Source: a virus. From it: a DNA stretch of 33,525 bases. Below are positions 13,518-32,954 of this stretch, one piece after another. The stretch spans positions 1 to 33,525 of the IMG/VR virus record IMGVR_UViG_3300009425_002477. The stretch is one strand, 5' to 3'. Every line of letters begins with the position of its first letter. The stretch's first letter is position 1. A program made the position numbers and the translations under genes. The notes under the pieces were generated by a model, which was not told where the DNA came from, searched no databases, and saw nothing but the letters and a program-made list of their open reading frames with translations.

Positions 13518-14990
13518 TTATTTTTGAAGTTTACTCATTAAATCCTTCATTCTCATGAACTGAGGATTTTCGTAAGTTTTATTTTCGATAAGATTTGTCG
13601 CCGAACCTCTAGATGGAGATTTCTGAACTTTAGCTGCAACTGATTCAGTTACGACTGAAGAATTTCCTTTTGATTCTAAGTCTTCTTTAACTATTCTATA
13701 AAGACCTTTTGATTCTTTGATTGTATCCGCAGAATCGAAACGTCTTAAAATGTTTATTTTTTCTTGTTTTGTTGTCGAATGCTCAGTAAACAGTCGAGTT
13801 GCGTATGCTAGATTTGAATTAAAAACCGCGACTTCGTTAAGTTTTTCTTTAAAAATGTTAAGTGCTTTACGGTACTCTTCATTCTTCTCTCTTAACTGAC
13901 CCACTTCTTTTTGTAGTGTTGACTCGTTGTATCTTGACTTATTTGGAATAGCTGCTGGTTTCTTAAGACCTTTCGACTTTTGGGATGACGCTTTAGAACC
14001 GACCGCATGACTTCTAATCATACCTTCTTTAGCTTCTTCGTAATCCTTATAGTGTCCTTTTCTAACACCAGCTTTCTTTTCAACTCCGTCTACATCCTTA
14101 CGTCTGTATTCATGTTTGTCAGAACCCCATTCCTCACTTGCTTCAGTTTTCTCAGCGTCATCATCCATATCGATTTCTAAATCTCTAATATGAGCCGCGT
14201 CGTCCTTTTCAGCGTCGTGATATTTGTCATACTCCTCATCATCTTCTTCACCAAGTTCGATTTCGTAAACAACTTCGTCTCCTTCGTTAGATTCGTCATA
14301 TCCTTCATTTGATTCTTCATAATCCTTGTGGGATTTTGAATCGTCGCCTTTCTTACCTCCGTATCCTTCGTTAGACTCCTCATAGTCCTTATGAGATTTA
14401 GAGTCGTCTCCTTTCTTACCTCCGAATTCCTCCATTTGAATTTGATATTCAACGTCAGCCTCTTCGTCTTTAAGTGTGATTTCGTCACCGTCTTGTGTTA
14501 CAACGATTCCGTCTTCTTCACCCATAGCCTTGAAGACCTTAAGGATTTCTTCGTCAGATGCACCAGTTAAATCAAGCGGTAAAAGAATTTCTTCTTCATC
14601 ATCCACTTCAAATTCATCTCCTGGTAAATCCATCATAAGCATTTCATCAGATGCCATTTCAATTTCGTCCTCATCTTCATAAGATTCGTAATCCATTTCA
14701 ATTTCATCATCTACCTCCATGTCGTCTTCTATGTCAAGTTCATCTTGTTCCTTTGTTTCGTGTTTAACAGATTTCCCTGTATTTACACCTTTTTTCGGTT
14801 TTTCACTTTCCATTGTTTCGACAGACACTTCGTCTTCAATCTCATCAGATAGAGATTCTTTTACTAATTCACTGATTTCTTCCTTCATTGTAGAAGCAAG
14901 TATTCCTTTTGCATTCTCCGTAACGGCTTGTTCCAAATTCTTCATTTGTAATAGCGCTTCTTCGACTAAATTTTGTTTTTTCTCTGCCAT
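13518..14990 (-). CDS. Prohead core scaffolding protein, T4 gp22-like
   Basis: A 490-residue, very acidic protein directly before the capsid gene, the T4 gene 22-23 order. Residues ~1-50 are helical; ~80-300 are dominated by Asp/Glu, including two tandem copies of a 21-residue unit (GGKKGDDSKSHKDYEESNEGY). The C-terminal third (about 350-450) is a coiled-coil ending in NSNLAYATRLFTEHSTTKQEKINILRRFD, the part most like gp22 and related scaffolds, where a conserved helix contacts the capsid protein. The protein should fill the prohead and be degraded by the prohead protease before packaging. The leader is about 40 nt and holds a late-type octamer at its far end. Opposite-strand frames over this gene are Ser-rich mirrors of the acidic codons. 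Confidence 0.85.
   Translation of the reverse strand: MAEKKQNLVEEALLQMKNLEQAVTENAKGILASTMKEEISELVKESLSDEIEDEVSVETMESEKPKKGVNTGKSVKHETKEQDELDIEDDMEVDDEIEMDYESYEDEDEIEMASDEMLMMDLPGDEFEVDDEEEILLPLDLTGASDEEILKVFKAMGEEDGIVVTQDGDEITLKDEEADVEYQIQMEEFGGKKGDDSKSHKDYEESNEGYGGKKGDDSKSHKDYEESNEGYDESNEGDEVVYEIELGEEDDEEYDKYHDAEKDDAAHIRDLEIDMDDDAEKTEASEEWGSDKHEYRRKDVDGVEKKAGVRKGHYKDYEEAKEGMIRSHAVGSKASSQKSKGLKKPAAIPNKSRYNESTLQKEVGQLREKNEEYRKALNIFKEKLNEVAVFNSNLAYATRLFTEHSTTKQEKINILRRFDSADTIKESKGLYRIVKEDLESKGNSSVVTESVAAKVQKSPSRGSATNLIENKTYENPQFMRMKDLMSKLQK
14301..14426 (-). repeat. Tandem 63-bp coding repeat in scaffold gene
   Basis: Two adjacent 63-bp units (14301-14363 and 14364-14426) encode the same 21 residues except the last (Tyr or Phe). 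By eye they differ at 11 of 63 bases, nearly all silent, so the duplication is old and the protein sequence has been kept. Confidence 0.9.
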
Positions 14991-15030
14991 TTTAGTTTTA
15001 TTTTTGCAAAATATTTATTTATAGTTTTAT

Positions 15031-15038
15031 TATAAATA
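15031..15038 (-). promoter_or_regulatory. Candidate late promoter for scaffold-capsid operon
   Basis: TATTTATA on the minus strand, followed by ATAAAAC as at other late octamers, 40 nt before the scaffold start at 14990. A second AT element (minus-strand TATAAATA within 15016-15026) lies closer. This is the start of a module repeated at 18146. Confidence 0.5.
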
Positions 15039-15078
15039 TACGTGAATTGAAAAAAATACGTTTTATTCTACATATAGC

Positions 15079-15105
15079 AAAAAAAAATCGAGGTTTACCA
15101 CAATT
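15079..15105 (-). terminator. Probable terminator of the T9SS cargo operon
   Basis: On the minus strand AATTGTGG and CCTCGATT (15105-15098 with 15093-15086) pair at 7 of 8 positions (one G-T, one mismatch) around loop TAAA, followed by nine T. It is weaker than copy B at 18195-18220 and looks partly decayed. Confidence 0.6.
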
Positions 15106-15146
15106 CTTGTTTTTAAATATGTTATATTATACGACCTAAATAATCG

Positions 15147-16793
15147 TTATCTAAATACTGTTACGTATCCCTGAATCTCAGTAGCACCCCCTGATTGGGT
15201 GGCTTTTATCTTCCATACATATACTCCGTCTGGAACTAACCAATGTCCACTTCTACTTTGTCCTTCCCAAAAATCATTTACTAAGCTAGTCTCCCATACG
15301 ATACCACCCCAACGATTATAGATTTGTAAGTTCCATGTTAACCAGCAGACTGAATCGGTTACTGCATAGAAGGTATCATTAACACCATCATTGTTTGGTG
15401 TAAAGGTGTTTGGTACAAAAATTGAGTTATCTGTACAGCCTATTATTCCATCACATGGCTCACCAGTCTCACAATCGATGTATTGTGTTATATACTCAGT
15501 GATTGTAATTGTATCTGTTAAGTAAATGTAGTTATCGACTAATATTTCTATAGTATCTGTGATATAGATGTACTCAATAGTTTCTACATATATAGTATCA
15601 TAGATATACTCAGTTAACCATAACGTATCTATTACGTCTACATATTCTATAATTTCTATTGTATCAGTCTCATAGATAGTATCTACGACATCTACATAGA
15701 TAGTATCTGTGATATAAATTAGGATATCCACATATTCTATAATAGTATCTGGAGGTAGTTCAATATATAAAGTATCAATAATATTTACGTAGATAGTATC
15801 GATTACCTCCACATAAAGAGTATCTGTAATATTGATATATTCTATAATAGTATCACTTTCACATTCTATAGGACAGTCTAATAATTCAGGAAAGAAAACT
15901 GTAGTAATGTTATTTCCCGTTATTATCTCATCGTTAACATCACTTACTTCAATAACGAAAAATCCACCTTCGTTCCAAGGACCTTGGAGTGGGGAGGATG
16001 TAAATGTTTGACCAAATCCTGGAGGTATTCCTAAATTACCATCCCCTGATGAGTCGGAATCGTAACAATCATATACATCTTCATTCCATATTTCTACACA
16101 ATAATCAGTTATTATATCTTGACCATAATTCCAAATAATATATGTTACCTCGTAGTACGCATCATCCCCTATACATCCAGTTTCAAACTCAACATTTCCT
16201 ATCACGGCATCAGGTGCGTCAGGTGGAGGACAACTTGATATCGAATTATTAAATATATTTACATCAGGATAGTTTTGTGTTTGTAAGGCACCACCTCCAT
16301 TAACTGCCCAACCTCCTTCGTCTACTGAGGATGTACGAGATAAGTTAATCTGCCATACAACAATCTCAGTACACAAAGTATCATTAGATAGTATCTCAGC
16401 CCAGCAATCACTCGCTAAAGAAGTATCATATACATTTGCACTCCAAGTATCCCCACTCTCTAATTCCTGATTCCCAAATAAAGTGAAAGTCTTAAACGTC
16501 CAACCAGGATGGTTAACAGTTCCAGTACAACCCCAATTATAATCTAACCCAGGGGAGTGTAGTCCTAAAACTATATGACTAACAGTTGTGTTGTTATTTA
16601 CGAAAGGACTGCCGCTATTCTCACACGTATTTCCTTCTGTTGTAAATTCATTACATCCACAGTTTTCGCTATTGATAGCCTCAATAACAATATCGCCAGT
16701 AGTTGCATTCCAACTATTAATACTTAAGTCACATTGAGCAACTACACTAAAATGTATGAGTCCTATTAGGAGAGCAAATAATTTACTTTTCAT
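15147..16793 (-). CDS. T9SS type B-sorted secreted protein with DTIYV stalk
   Basis: A 548-residue exported protein. Residues 1-20 (MKSKLFALLIGLIHFSVVAQ) form a signal peptide. Residues ~21-190 are a Cys-rich beta domain; ~195-305 look like a CARDB/Ig-type domain. Residues ~313-437 are a low-complexity stalk built on repeats of DTIYV/DTLYI/DTIEI. Residues ~455-548 match the gliding-motility C-terminal (type B, CHU_C) T9SS sorting domain: FVPNTFTPNNDGVNDTF, then QIYNRWGGIVWE and DGVYVWKIKA. In Bacteroidetes such proteins cross the outer membrane through T9SS and stay on the surface or are released; adhesins are common. It starts 11 nt inside the end of the metalloprotease gene, so the two are coupled. 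I know no phage structural role for it; it is host-type cargo among head genes, lacking GATC like the rest. Confidence 0.85.
   Translation of the reverse strand: MKSKLFALLIGLIHFSVVAQCDLSINSWNATTGDIVIEAINSENCGCNEFTTEGNTCENSGSPFVNNNTTVSHIVLGLHSPGLDYNWGCTGTVNHPGWTFKTFTLFGNQELESGDTWSANVYDTSLASDCWAEILSNDTLCTEIVVWQINLSRTSSVDEGGWAVNGGGALQTQNYPDVNIFNNSISSCPPPDAPDAVIGNVEFETGCIGDDAYYEVTYIIWNYGQDIITDYCVEIWNEDVYDCYDSDSSGDGNLGIPPGFGQTFTSSPLQGPWNEGGFFVIEVSDVNDEIITGNNITTVFFPELLDCPIECESDTIIEYINITDTLYVEVIDTIYVNIIDTLYIELPPDTIIEYVDILIYITDTIYVDVVDTIYETDTIEIIEYVDVIDTLWLTEYIYDTIYVETIEYIYITDTIEILVDNYIYLTDTITITEYITQYIDCETGEPCDGIIGCTDNSIFVPNTFTPNNDGVNDTFYAVTDSVCWLTWNLQIYNRWGGIVWETSLVNDFWEGQSRSGHWLVPDGVYVWKIKATQSGGATEIQGYVTVFR
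15483..15857 (-). repeat. DTIYV-type repeat region in T9SS stalk
   Basis: Codes for residues ~313-437, with Asp-Thr followed by Ile/Leu and hydrophobic residues at intervals of 6-14 (D at about 314, 324, 332, 340, 349, 363, 371, 377, 389, 399, 413, 427). Such stretches occur in Bacteroidetes surface proteins as extended beta linkers. Confidence 0.75.
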
Positions 16794-18102
16794 TTTGATA
16801 AAATATTTTTTTTGTGGTGATAAAACCGTTTGACCATTCAGTCTTTATTATATAAAGGCCAGGTGATATTCTACTAACATCCGATATCACCCTACCATCT
16901 ATACCAATAATAGATGATTTAATTACTTCACTGATTGATTTTTCTATTATAGGTTGAGGTTTTGGCATATCAATAATACTTCCTGTAGTACAATCCATCC
17001 CATAATATTCAAGGAATGTCATTAATTCATCAACCCCAACACCATTAGTTCCATAATTAGATAGAAACACATTCAAATCAGAAACTCCAACAATACCATC
17101 CCCATCAAAATCATATGGGCAAGTATCTTCAACATCACAAACACTCCCATCAGTTATCAGTGAGGGTCTATAAACCAACATACCATGCATTCTATCTGAT
17201 TGTCCAGGTGTGAATCTTGTGCAACAAGGGTCGGCGTAGTAATCCATATAATTATCTAATAGAGGATTTAGTTCGGGACATGTAGGATTATTACAACTCC
17301 AATTTACTAAGGTGGGAGGGGTATCACATACATAATCCCCTTGTTGCAAGCAATTTACCTCTTCATCCACACTATCGCACGAAGCATTAATATTAAAAAT
17401 ATGGTATAACCCTAAATAATGACCCATCTCGTGAACTAAAGTCCTATTTAACCCAAAATTAGTACTTGATGTAAATCCAAAAGCATTAGTCCTTACATAC
17501 ACCCCATATGGGGCAGGAGGAGTGTAAGCGAATCCGAGTGGATTACCCGACCAAGGTACTACGTATATATTACAATAGTTAAATGACGCATAAGATAATG
17601 CGGAGTACATACTTAGATGAGTATTATATACATTATCAATATCCCCTAATCCCAAATCTCCCCAATCATAATAGCGAATACCATCAATATCATCACCCGA
17701 TGGTGATAGACCAGCAATACAAAAATCGATTTGGGTATTTGCGTCAGATAAATCAGAAAATACTCCTGCGAAATTCTCAGCAAGATTAGTAACTGTTTCC
17801 TTCACAAATTCCTCCGTCAAGTGAGAACCTACTCCATAATCCTCTCCCTCATGTATAACATGTACAATAACAGGTACAATAATAGGGTCAGGAGCCGTTC
17901 TTTGGATGTTTTTGTGAGAATTTTGATTAAATTTCAAAACTTTCATATAATCCCGTGAATATTCTGGGTCCTCCATAGCTCTTGTGTGGACTTCGTCAGT
18001 TCCACATTTTTCTACCTCTACCGAGCTGAAAACATGTTGGGTGCTTTGAGCTGATAAGAAAAAGGGTAGTAATATTAGAGGTACTATTAAAAATCGACAC
18101 AT
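16783..18102 (-). CDS. Secreted M43 (pappalysin-type) metalloprotease with dockerin-like repeat and T9SS type A domain
   Basis: A 439-residue exported enzyme. Residues 1-18 form the signal peptide (MCRFLIVPLILLPFFLSA). The catalytic domain (about 70-310) carries HEMGHYLGLYH at 224-234, the metzincin zinc motif HExxHxxGxxH, and NYMDYY at 284-289 with the Met-turn Met286. This pattern and the Cys-rich loop (CNNPTCPELNP) fit family M43, whose bacterial members cut extracellular or surface proteins. Residues 331-347 (DFDGDGIVGVSDLNVFL) are a calcium-binding dockerin-like EF loop. Residues ~388-439 (SSIIGIDGRVISDV...GLYIIKTEWSNGF) fit the type A T9SS sorting domain. It is followed by, and overlaps, the type B cargo gene. 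The context is the phage head cluster, so it is best read as a moron acting outside the infected cell. Confidence 0.88.
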   Translation of the reverse strand: MCRFLIVPLILLPFFLSAQSTQHVFSSVEVEKCGTDEVHTRAMEDPEYSRDYMKVLKFNQNSHKNIQRTAPDPIIVPVIVHVIHEGEDYGVGSHLTEEFVKETVTNLAENFAGVFSDLSDANTQIDFCIAGLSPSGDDIDGIRYYDWGDLGLGDIDNVYNTHLSMYSALSYASFNYCNIYVVPWSGNPLGFAYTPPAPYGVYVRTNAFGFTSSTNFGLNRTLVHEMGHYLGLYHIFNINASCDSVDEEVNCLQQGDYVCDTPPTLVNWSCNNPTCPELNPLLDNYMDYYADPCCTRFTPGQSDRMHGMLVYRPSLITDGSVCDVEDTCPYDFDGDGIVGVSDLNVFLSNYGTNGVGVDELMTFLEYYGMDCTTGSIIDMPKPQPIIEKSISEVIKSSIIGIDGRVISDVSRISPGLYIIKTEWSNGFITTKKIFYQNEK

Positions 18103-18109
18103 CTAAGGG

Positions 18110-18154
18110 TATATATAAGCGTTTGTAATAATATATTATTATCCCTTATAAATA
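18110..18154 (-). promoter_or_regulatory. Candidate promoter(s) of the T9SS cargo operon
   Basis: Minus-strand TATTTATA at 18147-18154, 44 nt before the metalloprotease start, at almost the same distance as in the related module A (40 nt). A second element, TATATATA at 18110-18117, is 7 nt from the start. Either could drive late expression. Confidence 0.45.
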
Positions 18155-18230
18155 TCTGTTAATTTAAAAAAGATAACTTTATTCATTATAAGGCAAAAAA
18201 AAATCGGGGGTATCCCGATTCTTATTTTTT
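18146..18230 (-). repeat. Promoter/terminator module, copy B
   Basis: Partner of 15030-15115. Shared landmarks are TTATAAATAT, AATT, AAAAA, TTTATTC and GC followed by nine A and TCG, all at equal spacing, then ATTCTT and a T run. It separates the DUF4494-like gene (terminator) from the cargo operon (promoter). Confidence 0.6.
18195..18220 (-). terminator. Intrinsic terminator after the prohead protease operon
   Basis: Stem AATCGGG / CCCGATT (18202-18208 with 18214-18220), loop GGTAT; on the minus strand followed by nine T. It lies 28 nt after the stop of the 18248-18466 gene. Confidence 0.8.
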
Positions 18231-18247
18231 TAATGTGTGATTTAATT

Positions 18248-30935: not shown

Positions 30936-32954
30936 ATGATAGAATCAGTAGACCCTAATGAAAAGGGAGGACGTAAACCCAAAGAAATTAATAACTCTAG
31001 AACTCCCGTTTTAGATAATTTTTCTCGTGACTTAATTAAGTATGCCGAAATGGGTAAACTTGACCCAGTAGTTGGACGTGAACGAGAGATTAATCGAATA
31101 GCCCAGATTCTTTCTCGAAGAAAGAAGAATAACCCAATTATTGTTGGGGAGCCTGGTGCGGGTAAGACGGCAATTGTCGAAGGATTAGCAATGAAGATAT
31201 TTGAAGGGGACTGTCCTCAAAATTTATCAGATAAAAGAATAGTATCTTTAGATATGACTTCAATTGTAGCTGGAACTAAATACCGTGGACAATTCGAAGA
31301 GAGATTAAAGGTCATCTTAGATGAGTTAAATGAAAATTCAGATATTATAATTTTTATTGATGAGATACACACAATTATAGGTGCTGGTAACTCATCAGGT
31401 TCTTTAGATGCCTCTAACATCTTTAAACCTGCATTAGCTAGAGGTGAACTACAATGTATTGGGGCAACGACTCTTGATGAATACCGTGAAAACATTGAAA
31501 AGGATGGAGCTCTTGAGCGTCGTTTCCAAAAGGTTATTGTTGACGGGTCAACACCCGAAGAAACTTTAATCATTCTCGATAACTTAAAATCTCGTTATGA
31601 AGAACACCATAAAGTGACGTATACCCCCGAGTCGTTAAAGGCCTGTGTGACATTAGCGGATAGATATATTACTAACCGTGAATTTCCGGATAAGGCGATT
31701 GATATTATGGATGAGGTAGGAGCAAAGGCACAGATTAATGTTAAACTTCCTGAGGTTATTGAAAAACTTAGGTCACGTGCAATTAATATAAAAGAGGAGA
31801 AAATACGGGTAGTTAAATCTCAACAATATGAAAAGGCAGCAGAATTAAGAGATAAAGAAAGAAAAATTCTTAAAAAATTAGATAACGAAAAGGTAAAGTT
31901 TGAGGTGTCAAAAAATAACACACGTAAACCTATTACCGAAGATATGGTTTATGAAGTAGTATCTACTATGACTAAAATACCTGTAACGAAGTTAAATAAA
32001 GATGATAAAGAATCTTTATTGGGTCTCGAGAATAGTCTCAACCGTTCGGTAATTGGTCAAGAATTTGCCGTTGAAAAGATATCAAAGGCAATACGTAGAA
32101 ATCGTATCGGAATTAAAGACCCTAACCGACCTATAGGTTCTTTTATCTTTTTAGGTTCGACAGGTGTAGGTAAGACACATTTAGCTAAACAATTAGCTAA
32201 AGAAATTTTTGGTAGCGAAGACTCACTTATTAGAATGGATATGTCAGAATACCAAGAGAAGTACTCAATGTCGAGATTAATTGGTTCTCCTCCAGGATAT
32301 GTCGGTCATGACCAAGGAGGTCAATTAACTGAAGCAGTTAAAAACAAACCATATTCTGTAGTTTTATTCGATGAGATTGAAAAGGCGAATAAAGATATTT
32401 TCTCATTGTTACTTCAAATGATGGATGATGGACACTTAACTGATAGTTTCGGTCGTAAGATTAACTTTAAAAATTGCTTAATCATTATGACATCAAACTT
32501 AGGGGTTAAAAAAATTCAAGACTTTGGAGTAGGTGTTGGGTTTGACACTAAGAATAGAATGTCCAATAATGAAGACATGAAAAAGACAATTCTTCAAAAA
32601 GAGTTAAAGAACCATTTTACCCCTGAATTCTTAAATCGTGTTGATGAGGTAGTAGTTTTCAATCCACTAAAAGAGAAAGAAGTTGTTAAGATTGTAGATA
32701 TCGAGTTACTAAAACTTACGAAACGTTTATTTGAGATGAAGTATGAAATGACTATAACTGAGTCAGTTAAAGAATACATCGCTAAGGTAGGTTTTGACGA
32801 GAAGTATGGTGCACGTCCAATTAATCGAGCTATTCAAGAAAAAATTGAGGATTTAATTTCTGAGGAAATACTACGAGGTAACATAAATGAGAATGAACCA
32901 TTTATTATTGATATGAAGGACGATGAAGAATTAATCATTAAGAAAGATAATTAA
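30936..32954 (+). CDS. clpC: ClpC-like AAA+ unfoldase lacking the N domain
   Basis: A 672-residue class I Hsp100 protein. The first AAA+ module has Walker A GEPGAGKT at 71-78, Walker B IIIFIDE at 137-143 and the sensor/arginine region GALERRFQKV. A short middle region (about 280-315) carries a UVR motif (QQYEKAAELRDKERK), as in ClpC rather than ClpB. The second module has Walker A GSTGVGKT at 407-414, pore loop near GYVGHDQGG at 454-462 and Walker B VVLFDE at 475-480. VGF at 534-536 fits the ClpP-docking loop of ClpC. The usual N-terminal adaptor domain (about 150 residues) is missing; the protein begins with a short polar tail, MIESVDPNEKGGRKPKE. No phage ClpP is seen, so it may use host ClpP. 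It has a host-type promoter and candidate operators. A peptidase gene follows on the same strand. Confidence 0.92.
   Translation: MIESVDPNEKGGRKPKEINNSRTPVLDNFSRDLIKYAEMGKLDPVVGREREINRIAQILSRRKKNNPIIVGEPGAGKTAIVEGLAMKIFEGDCPQNLSDKRIVSLDMTSIVAGTKYRGQFEERLKVILDELNENSDIIIFIDEIHTIIGAGNSSGSLDASNIFKPALARGELQCIGATTLDEYRENIEKDGALERRFQKVIVDGSTPEETLIILDNLKSRYEEHHKVTYTPESLKACVTLADRYITNREFPDKAIDIMDEVGAKAQINVKLPEVIEKLRSRAINIKEEKIRVVKSQQYEKAAELRDKERKILKKLDNEKVKFEVSKNNTRKPITEDMVYEVVSTMTKIPVTKLNKDDKESLLGLENSLNRSVIGQEFAVEKISKAIRRNRIGIKDPNRPIGSFIFLGSTGVGKTHLAKQLAKEIFGSEDSLIRMDMSEYQEKYSMSRLIGSPPGYVGHDQGGQLTEAVKNKPYSVVLFDEIEKANKDIFSLLLQMMDDGHLTDSFGRKINFKNCLIIMTSNLGVKKIQDFGVGVGFDTKNRMSNNEDMKKTILQKELKNHFTPEFLNRVDEVVVFNPLKEKEVVKIVDIELLKLTKRLFEMKYEMTITESVKEYIAKVGFDEKYGARPINRAIQEKIEDLISEEILRGNINENEPFIIDMKDDEELIIKKDN

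Follow-up and report, generated by a model that had tools for sequence, protein, structure and literature searches.

A moron-like cassette in a T4-like phage head cluster pairs a predicted type B T9SS stalk protein with an M43 metalloprotease

Analysis of the viral record IMGVR_UViG_3300009425_002477 (the whole stretch of 33,525 bases is hereafter called the window) revealed a cassette of two overlapping minus-strand open reading frames (ORFs) within a T4-like head-gene cluster. The first encodes an M43/pappalysin-type metalloprotease of 439 amino acids (aa; 16783..18102, assigned by PF05572 and PDB matches), and the second a stalk protein of 548 aa (15147..16793, assigned by TIGR04131 and PF13585) with a predicted type B sorting tail of the type IX secretion system (T9SS). 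Both ORFs lie where an original prediction for this DNA had placed two coupled genes, and they share 11 nucleotides (nt). We read the cassette as moron-like, inserted into a T4-like phage that probably infects Bacteroidota; its products would form a late surface complex cleaving or masking proteins of the host surface, and we give this reading a probability of about one half.

The stalk protein is predicted to be a T9SS substrate of type B (CHU_C), as originally proposed. Its tail (15150..15431, minus strand) scored 64.7 bits against PF13585 (cut-off 27) and barely passed TIGR04131 with 35.8 bits (cut-off 35). The AlphaFold (AF2) model of the tail reached a predicted local distance difference test score (pLDDT) of 84-94 from aa 461 onwards, and comparison with known T9SS tails revealed similarity to NucA (8glk_D; Z 8.9, root-mean-square deviation (rmsd) 1.9, 73 aligned residues), PorZ (Z 8.8) and PorU (Z 8.7), while streptococcal serine protease domains scored higher still (Z 10.0-10.2). 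The remainder of the minus-strand gene encodes a signal peptide (16737..16793; A19/Q20 by eye, following the Q-rule pattern discussed below), a cysteine-rich N-domain defined from an alignment of 24 sequences (16224..16736; NCGCNEF ... WQINLS ... QTQNYPD), a beta domain (15870..16223) and DTIYV-type repeats recognised in the sequence (15474..15869; AF2 pLDDT about 28). The beta domain (aa 190-305, pLDDT about 70) resembles many beta domains, CARDB included (VIA-align Z 8.2 to CARDB 3idu), and Pfam assigned none to it; as many unrelated beta domains reach Z 8-9, several of them above CARDB, identity with CARDB was rejected and fold likeness only is claimed. A Pfam scan found no cohesin in the stalk, and a sequence search against solved structures returned one low-complexity match only. 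Its best match in a viral structure library was A0A7S9STS8 (Foldseek E 7.3e-21, 32% identity).

The protease scored 46.0 bits against PF05572 (cut-off 23), and its PDB matches include mirolysin (E 1.2e-18, about 70 bits) and ulilysin (E 1.4e-18). On the minus strand, the gene encodes the zinc site HEMGHYLGLYH (aa 224-234; 17401..17433), which conforms to the HExxHxxGxxH motif, the Met-turn NYMDY (aa 284-288; 17239..17253) and a CGTD motif whose Cys33 (18004..18006) is, from alignments, the predicted cysteine-switch residue of a zymogen. Cys and Gly of this motif are invariant in all six aligned M43 proteins, and C33-G34 corresponds, in the alignment, to the CG of ulilysin 8cd8; CGxD occurs in 9 of the 14 viral M43 proteins listed, the others being those of loci L233, L245, L260, L277 and L280. 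Profile score, zinc site with Met-turn and Cys-Gly switch are those of the pappalysin/M43 family, which bears out the enzyme class first proposed, and the protein appears to be an M43 (pappalysin) metalloprotease with a complete active site and a predicted latent zymogen form.

Most substrates of signal peptidase I in Bacteroidetes are reported to expose a Gln once cleaved (Q-rule, PMC5837995), and Q-rule signal peptides have also been reported in Porphyromonas phages. Signal peptides were called with our own simple, loose rule (a hydrophobic stretch plus A/Q) in place of SignalP. By this rule both cassette proteins carry the expected N-terminal signal peptide with Gln at the appropriate place, as do 62 of 63 unique proteins of the stalk cluster, three M43 proteins among them, and 35/35 unique members of C1, an exported protein of ~120 aa introduced below, compared with 142 of 966 other ORFs. 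The sole miss in the stalk cluster (L071) has, by reading, an ORF start that was called too early. The protease-stalk pair is also rich in cysteine (31 of 987 residues, versus 43 of 9,239 in 27 other ORFs of the window). Because of the T9SS tail of the stalk and the signal peptides, the phage probably infects a Bacteroidota bacterium.

Around the cassette, Pfam identified a Gp23 capsid protein (245 bits), an S77 prohead protease (83 bits), a portal (264 bits) and a terminase (48 bits). The T4-like head-cluster context thus stood, whereas the identity of the scaffold gene did not: the cassette lies between a 72-aa gene and an ORF (13518-14990) to which Pfam and PHROG scans gave no family, and which is called scaffold from its position alone. 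A ClpB-like ATPase (30936-32954; PHROG 4871, 805 bits) is likewise encoded in the window. A chimeric contig, named beforehand as an explanation that would overturn the prediction, was excluded, as parts of this gene order recur with 99.79% identity in two further IMG/VR contigs, L001 over 12,916 nt spanning both cassette junctions and L015 over 4,782 nt from the stalk through the scaffold to the capsid gene. PADLOC gave no match for four proteins, PHROGs at E 0.01 matched neither the M43 protein nor the stalk to any family, and the 'phages' collection (50,697 records) held M43 in one record, stalk matches confined to the tail region in three, and no match to C1.

To place the cassette among its relatives, loci were selected by their capsid (best 80 of more than 600 matched), of which 47 hold both the prohead protease and the capsid gene. 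In tblastn searches none of the 47 carried M43 or stalk at the cassette site. The gap between the two genes measures 1.58-2.38 kilobases (kb) in 45 of them, versus 4,996 nt in the window, and these short gaps hold a 68-72-aa gene and the scaffold-position gene, joined in five loci by a 103-115-aa ORF. L095 (8.97 kb) and L125 (3.97 kb) have other genes in the gap, which in L095 form a multi-gene island unrelated to the cassette, and L089 encodes a divergent stalk (32%) elsewhere in the locus. Surveys of related viral genomes, as suggested with the original prediction, found the cassette at its site in 0/47 relatives and the stalk family in 81 viral loci. On the upstream side of the cassette, a spacer (18103..18247) is 77% identical over 86 nt to the downstream spacer (14991..15146), which in turn, over 133-134 nt, shows an 80-81% match to the single spacer of the empty-site loci L083 and L085; with that single spacer the upstream one agrees at 76-77% over 91-104 nt. 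This comparison covered 14 of the 47 loci, the other spacers of which match over shorter or weaker stretches. The upstream spacer further contains a terminator-like hairpin of 10 pairs with a T run (18199..18223), and an exact 14-mer occurs in two copies in the window, one on each side of the cassette (18193..18206 and 15077..15090, both minus strand like the spacers and the hairpin), with four copies at up to two mismatches versus 0.8 expected.

Because the cassette is absent from the site in 47/47 relatives and has similar terminator-bearing spacers on either side, it looks like an insertion of the moron type. The flanking spacers would result from recombination at similar terminator spacers, or from the cassette arriving with the spacer of a relative, and, as the island of L095 lies there too, the spacer preceding the scaffold gene is a possible hotspot of insertion. 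That the two proteins instead end up on virions in a structural role would agree with their location among head genes, but is very improbable given their signal peptides, their high cysteine content and the 47 related head clusters without them at this site. The T4-late-like motif TATAAATAA gave no signal in the window (64 matches versus 66 expected). As a separate observation, TATAAATAT (plus strand) is found at window positions 15031, 18147, 19222, 19626 and 21163, each time 12-45 nt upstream of the start of a minus-strand gene; a motif related to it occurs, in all, about as often as chance predicts.

The distribution of the stalk family was obtained from a scan of IMG/VR, in which 84 of 85 pattern-matched stretches encode relatives. 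The best 80 were kept and, after addition of two more loci and removal of one duplicate, gave the 81 loci (61 distinct stalk ORF sequences) on which the counts below are based. Among 84,980 cellular genomes, one of 36 pattern-matched stretches encodes a stalk relative, on a phage-like contig, in a scan with two short patterns that distant cellular relatives could escape. For 35 of the 81 loci, a terminase or portal of a different type is found among the neighbours, and we label these loci podovirus-like; representatives match PHROG terminase and portal families, and the portal is about 30% identical to that of Flavobacterium elemo phages. The remaining loci comprise 16 that are T4-like by Gp23, 10 by other T4-like neighbours and 20 without type. 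Among 50 contigs, mostly the longer ones, Gp23 exceeded its cut-off in 16, several of them near copies of each other, and six carry M43. A quick tree of 54 N-domain rows placed the window, on a long branch, in a clade of 33 (24 podovirus-like, six unassigned and three T4-like; Shimodaira-Hasegawa-like approximate likelihood ratio test 99) and requires at least four changes between the T4-like and podovirus-like types. The stalk family therefore appears to be virus-associated and to occur in phages of both types. Describing the cassette as unusual was accordingly too strong, with stalk relatives in 81 viral loci and M43 relatives in 123 viral stretches, while domain and signal-peptide evidence supports a phage-encoded T9SS type B protein and an export-signal-bearing protease in a head-gene cluster. 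Two side observations came from these scans. Locus L170 (WLWP01000006.1), the contig of the single relative in cellular genomes, is binned in a 'Pseudomonadales' metagenome-assembled genome and carries C1 and stalk together with GroEL-like and fibre-like genes by reading; it is probably phage DNA that was misbinned and that belongs to a phage infecting Bacteroidota. In the podovirus-like L032 (15157-17160), an exported protein has a type A T9SS tail over the cut-off (34.8 bits), and a relative with a similar tail is encoded in L047 (2449-4587), of unassigned phage type; proteins of this kind measure 667-712 aa.

Two other explanations were considered. The type B model TIGR04131 was passed by all six stalk-type proteins compared (window, L002, L004, L009, L058 and the fused L072), as it would be if the stalk competed for the type B route and thereby stripped the host of adhesins or gliding proteins that may serve as receptors, with the protease secondary; we consider such jamming of the T9SS quite improbable, as it leaves the conserved N-domain and the partner gene unexplained. 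It is improbable, too, that the pair is auxiliary cargo of benefit to the host, with extracellular proteolysis or adhesion feeding or anchoring the infected cell in a slow infection. M43 relatives do occur on plasmids of several bacteria (best match Haliscomenobacter, 34.5% over 53% of the protein) and mirolysin is a secreted bacterial protease, but the stalk N-domain, present in one of 84,980 cellular genomes and there on a phage-like contig, does not look host-borrowed, and the cassette sits among head genes.

The small exported protein C1 accompanies the stalk in 55 of the 81 loci (54 by clustering, L071 by profile). Where it is encoded directly upstream, it overlaps the stalk gene by 10 or 13 nt (35/35 such pairs), and a strict regular expression found a dockerin-like Ca loop in 26 of 36 distinct C1 sequences. 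Used as a query, C1 returned 55 loci, many on contigs already known; 48 of 51 new loci obtained in this way also had an N-domain match (three weak, at 31-35%), the exceptions being L188, L193 and L200. A separate C1 gene in the window was excluded by a six-frame search, in which nothing exceeded the inclusion threshold. There, the M43 protease stands in the place of C1, and its N-terminal end resembles C1: aa 1-32 (18007..18102, minus strand) comprise the signal peptide (A18/Q19 by eye) and the QHVFSSVxxEK stretch common to the C1 family, with 13.6 bits for the C1 profile at aa 2-33 and 59% blastp identity over 32 aa to the C1 of L007. Cys33 of the CGTD motif follows directly, at the point where M43 relatives begin. 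Among 82 M43 ORFs such an N-terminus belongs to the window type (L222) alone. The dockerin-like Ca loop noted originally is also present (aa 322-372, 16987..17139, minus strand; regular-expression match at aa 331) and, at 28.9 bits, is the highest-scoring among M43 proteins for the C1 profile, with 71% identity over 28 aa to the C1 of L006. In its strict form the loop occurs in 8 of 9 separate M43 proteins listed and in none of three fused ones, and docking of M43 through it is a guess.

C1 and M43 appear exchangeable. They occur together in 0/57 evaluable loci (24 of the 81 were left out as truncated), of which 45 have C1 only, five M43 only and seven neither (p = 1.9e-4, relatedness uncorrected); with identical stalks counted once (45 loci), the numbers are 36, five and four. 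M43 lies directly 5' of a stalk homologue in the window and L001, L002, L078, L223-225, L233, L277 and L280, overlapping it by 11 nt in the window type, 4 nt in L002 and 10 nt in L078, and a single fused ORF comprises M43, N-domain, repeats and CHU_C in L072, L074 and L075. A profile search for M43 returned 328 stretches, 123 with M43 relatives; in the best 80 of these 123, the stalk is directly downstream in eight (L222, which is the L001 contig, L223-225, L231, which is the L002 contig, L233, L277 and L280) and fused in three, and L232 has a type B-tailed protein further away. M43 proteases are hence widespread among viral contigs, and a stalk is coupled to just some of them. Many viral contigs among L238-L300 encode an M43 protein of ~330-480 aa that has a C1-like Ca loop, and their retrieved pieces show no stalk. 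Between C1 and stalk, DUF285/PARCEL repeat and DUF5675 proteins were observed (L037:5461-7950, L170:6658-7947, L036:7516-7995), as if this slot takes cargo. More tentatively, and with a probability that we regard as low and that the wide occurrence of the Ca loop among M43 ORFs reduces further, unrelated Bacteroidota phages might share a virus-specific modular cell-surface machine, in which a T9SS-displayed stalk and an exchangeable exported partner form a late receptor-destroying or masking coat. The partners in such a machine might be C1, the latent pappalysin protease, or cargo placed between such as DUF285 repeats or DUF5675.

Under the reading of a late surface complex, the cassette genes would be expressed late in infection and Sec would carry both proteins across the inner membrane. 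From there the stalk would pass the host T9SS and be displayed on the cell surface, and the latent protease might reach the surface via its own weak T9SS tail or by accompanying the stalk. Once activated there, it would cut or shield host surface proteins, so that the dying cell would re-adsorb fewer progeny and rival phages and superinfection would be limited, in effect like a viral receptor-destroying enzyme. Alternatively, protease and stalk could loosen the outer surface layer or matrix for virion escape, beside the lysis genes. Such a release function is possible, although we regard it as doubtful. Near neighbours by Pfam include two M15 peptidases, two Amidase_2 proteins and one DUF5675 (first 25 families listed), reading of the sequences assigned the M15 peptidases to L233 and L071 and one of the amidases to L277, and L011, L035, L036, L041, L042 and L053 have DUF5675-type genes placed between C1 and stalk. 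However, the excess of lysis genes is not significant (5/72 near versus 2/91 far, p = 0.24, for the same first 25 families), so that an association of the cassette family with them was rejected; DUF5675 is of unknown function, a PG_binding_1 member, perhaps one of the five, went uncounted, and in the window none of 20 ORFs compared with PHROGs, 10 of these also with Pfam, was recognised as a lysis gene.

Several observations weigh against the late surface complex. The type A sorting domain originally assigned to the protease did not hold up, with TIGR04183 scores of 12.0 bits for the whole protein and 16.4 bits for the tail alone (cut-off 23), leaving a short T9SS-like tail (aa 390-439; 16786..16935, minus strand) below the type A threshold. 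Eight related tails have a short pattern in common, six of them match TIGR04183 at E up to 1, and a profile of the eight found the T9SS substrate tail 8glk_D as its best PDB match, at an E value of only 0.07; against two viral type A tails, profile comparison yielded a probability of 35% (E 4e-4, a single comparison). The signal of the T9SS substrate HBP35 has been placed within its last 22 residues (PMC11285876), and by analogy the short protease tail could suffice for T9SS export. Further, the stalk N-domain and repeats are poorly modelled and the C1 model has a pLDDT of 58, promoter-like sites are about as frequent as expected by chance (29, against 27.4 after shuffling), and the protease-stalk overlap of 11 nt differs in frame register from the overlaps between C1 and stalk (10 or 13 nt). 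A C1-like Ca loop is found in 77 of 82 M43 ORFs whether or not a stalk accompanies them; it therefore speaks only weakly for docking and was set aside as proof of descent from C1, so that the N-terminal end alone argues for M43 having taken over a C1 gene. Neither C1 nor M43 is present in the seven evaluable loci counted above, and 68 of the 80 M43 loci have no stalk match in the retrieved piece (some pieces are incomplete), and M43 therefore does not need the stalk. Finally, among named phages the capsid is best matched by Rhodothermus phage RM378 (29%), Microcystis phage Mel-JY01 (43%) and the Flavobacterium immuto phages (42%); with a Microcystis phage among the nearest, this protein by itself is not enough to assign a host.

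The occurrence of the cassette in unrelated phages that seemingly borrow the T9SS suggests a virus-specified surface on infected cells, and as stalk relatives recur in dozens of uncultured viral fragments, such viruses may remodel the surface of the cells they infect. The cassette also provides a named gene set for testing superinfection exclusion and progeny release, on which the literature, in the parts consulted, offers only suggestions. Among the matches listed, judged by titles and the beginnings of abstracts, no open-access paper on this cassette or on a phage M43 protein with a T9SS partner came up, and we did not find the type B stalk family, the partner exchange or the coupled protease described.

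For mirolysin we know of no C1-like N-terminal end and no stalk partner. This enzyme of Tannerella forsythia resembles the window protease in its M43 domain, its Cys-Gly cysteine switch and its nature as a secreted zymogen (PDB 6r7u, 6r7v; PMC6949598). It differs in being encoded by a cellular gene. A metzincin/TIMP-like pair of phage origin in Listeria differs in its Gram-positive host and in having a TIMP-like lipoprotein as partner, and is not known to involve a T9SS. The likeness here is that of a secreted metalloprotease with a paired exported protein in a phage-derived locus (PMC8235301). The best viral structure match of the stalk, A0A7S9STS8, is a gliding motility-associated C-terminal protein of Virus NIOZ-UU157; it differs in having 406 aa, its superposition on the whole model is poor (template modelling (TM) score 0.23-0.30, rmsd 19), and the papers on this virus (PMC13037465, PMC10537231) contain, in the parts consulted, nothing on it. 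T9SS cargo as such has already been reported in phages. The 'Cryophage' genes resemble the window cassette in their T9SS tails, which are of type A and borne by endoglucanase, GH39 and PA14 proteins, whereas M43, a type B stalk or a partner gene are not mentioned in the parts consulted (Bellas et al. 2020, PMC7468147). The crAss-BACON ORF is likewise a T9SS-tagged protein near the head genes of a Bacteroidetes phage; it differs from the window cassette in that its sorting domain is borne by a protein with BACON domains and in that it belongs to gut phages (de Jonge et al. 2019, PMC6949934).

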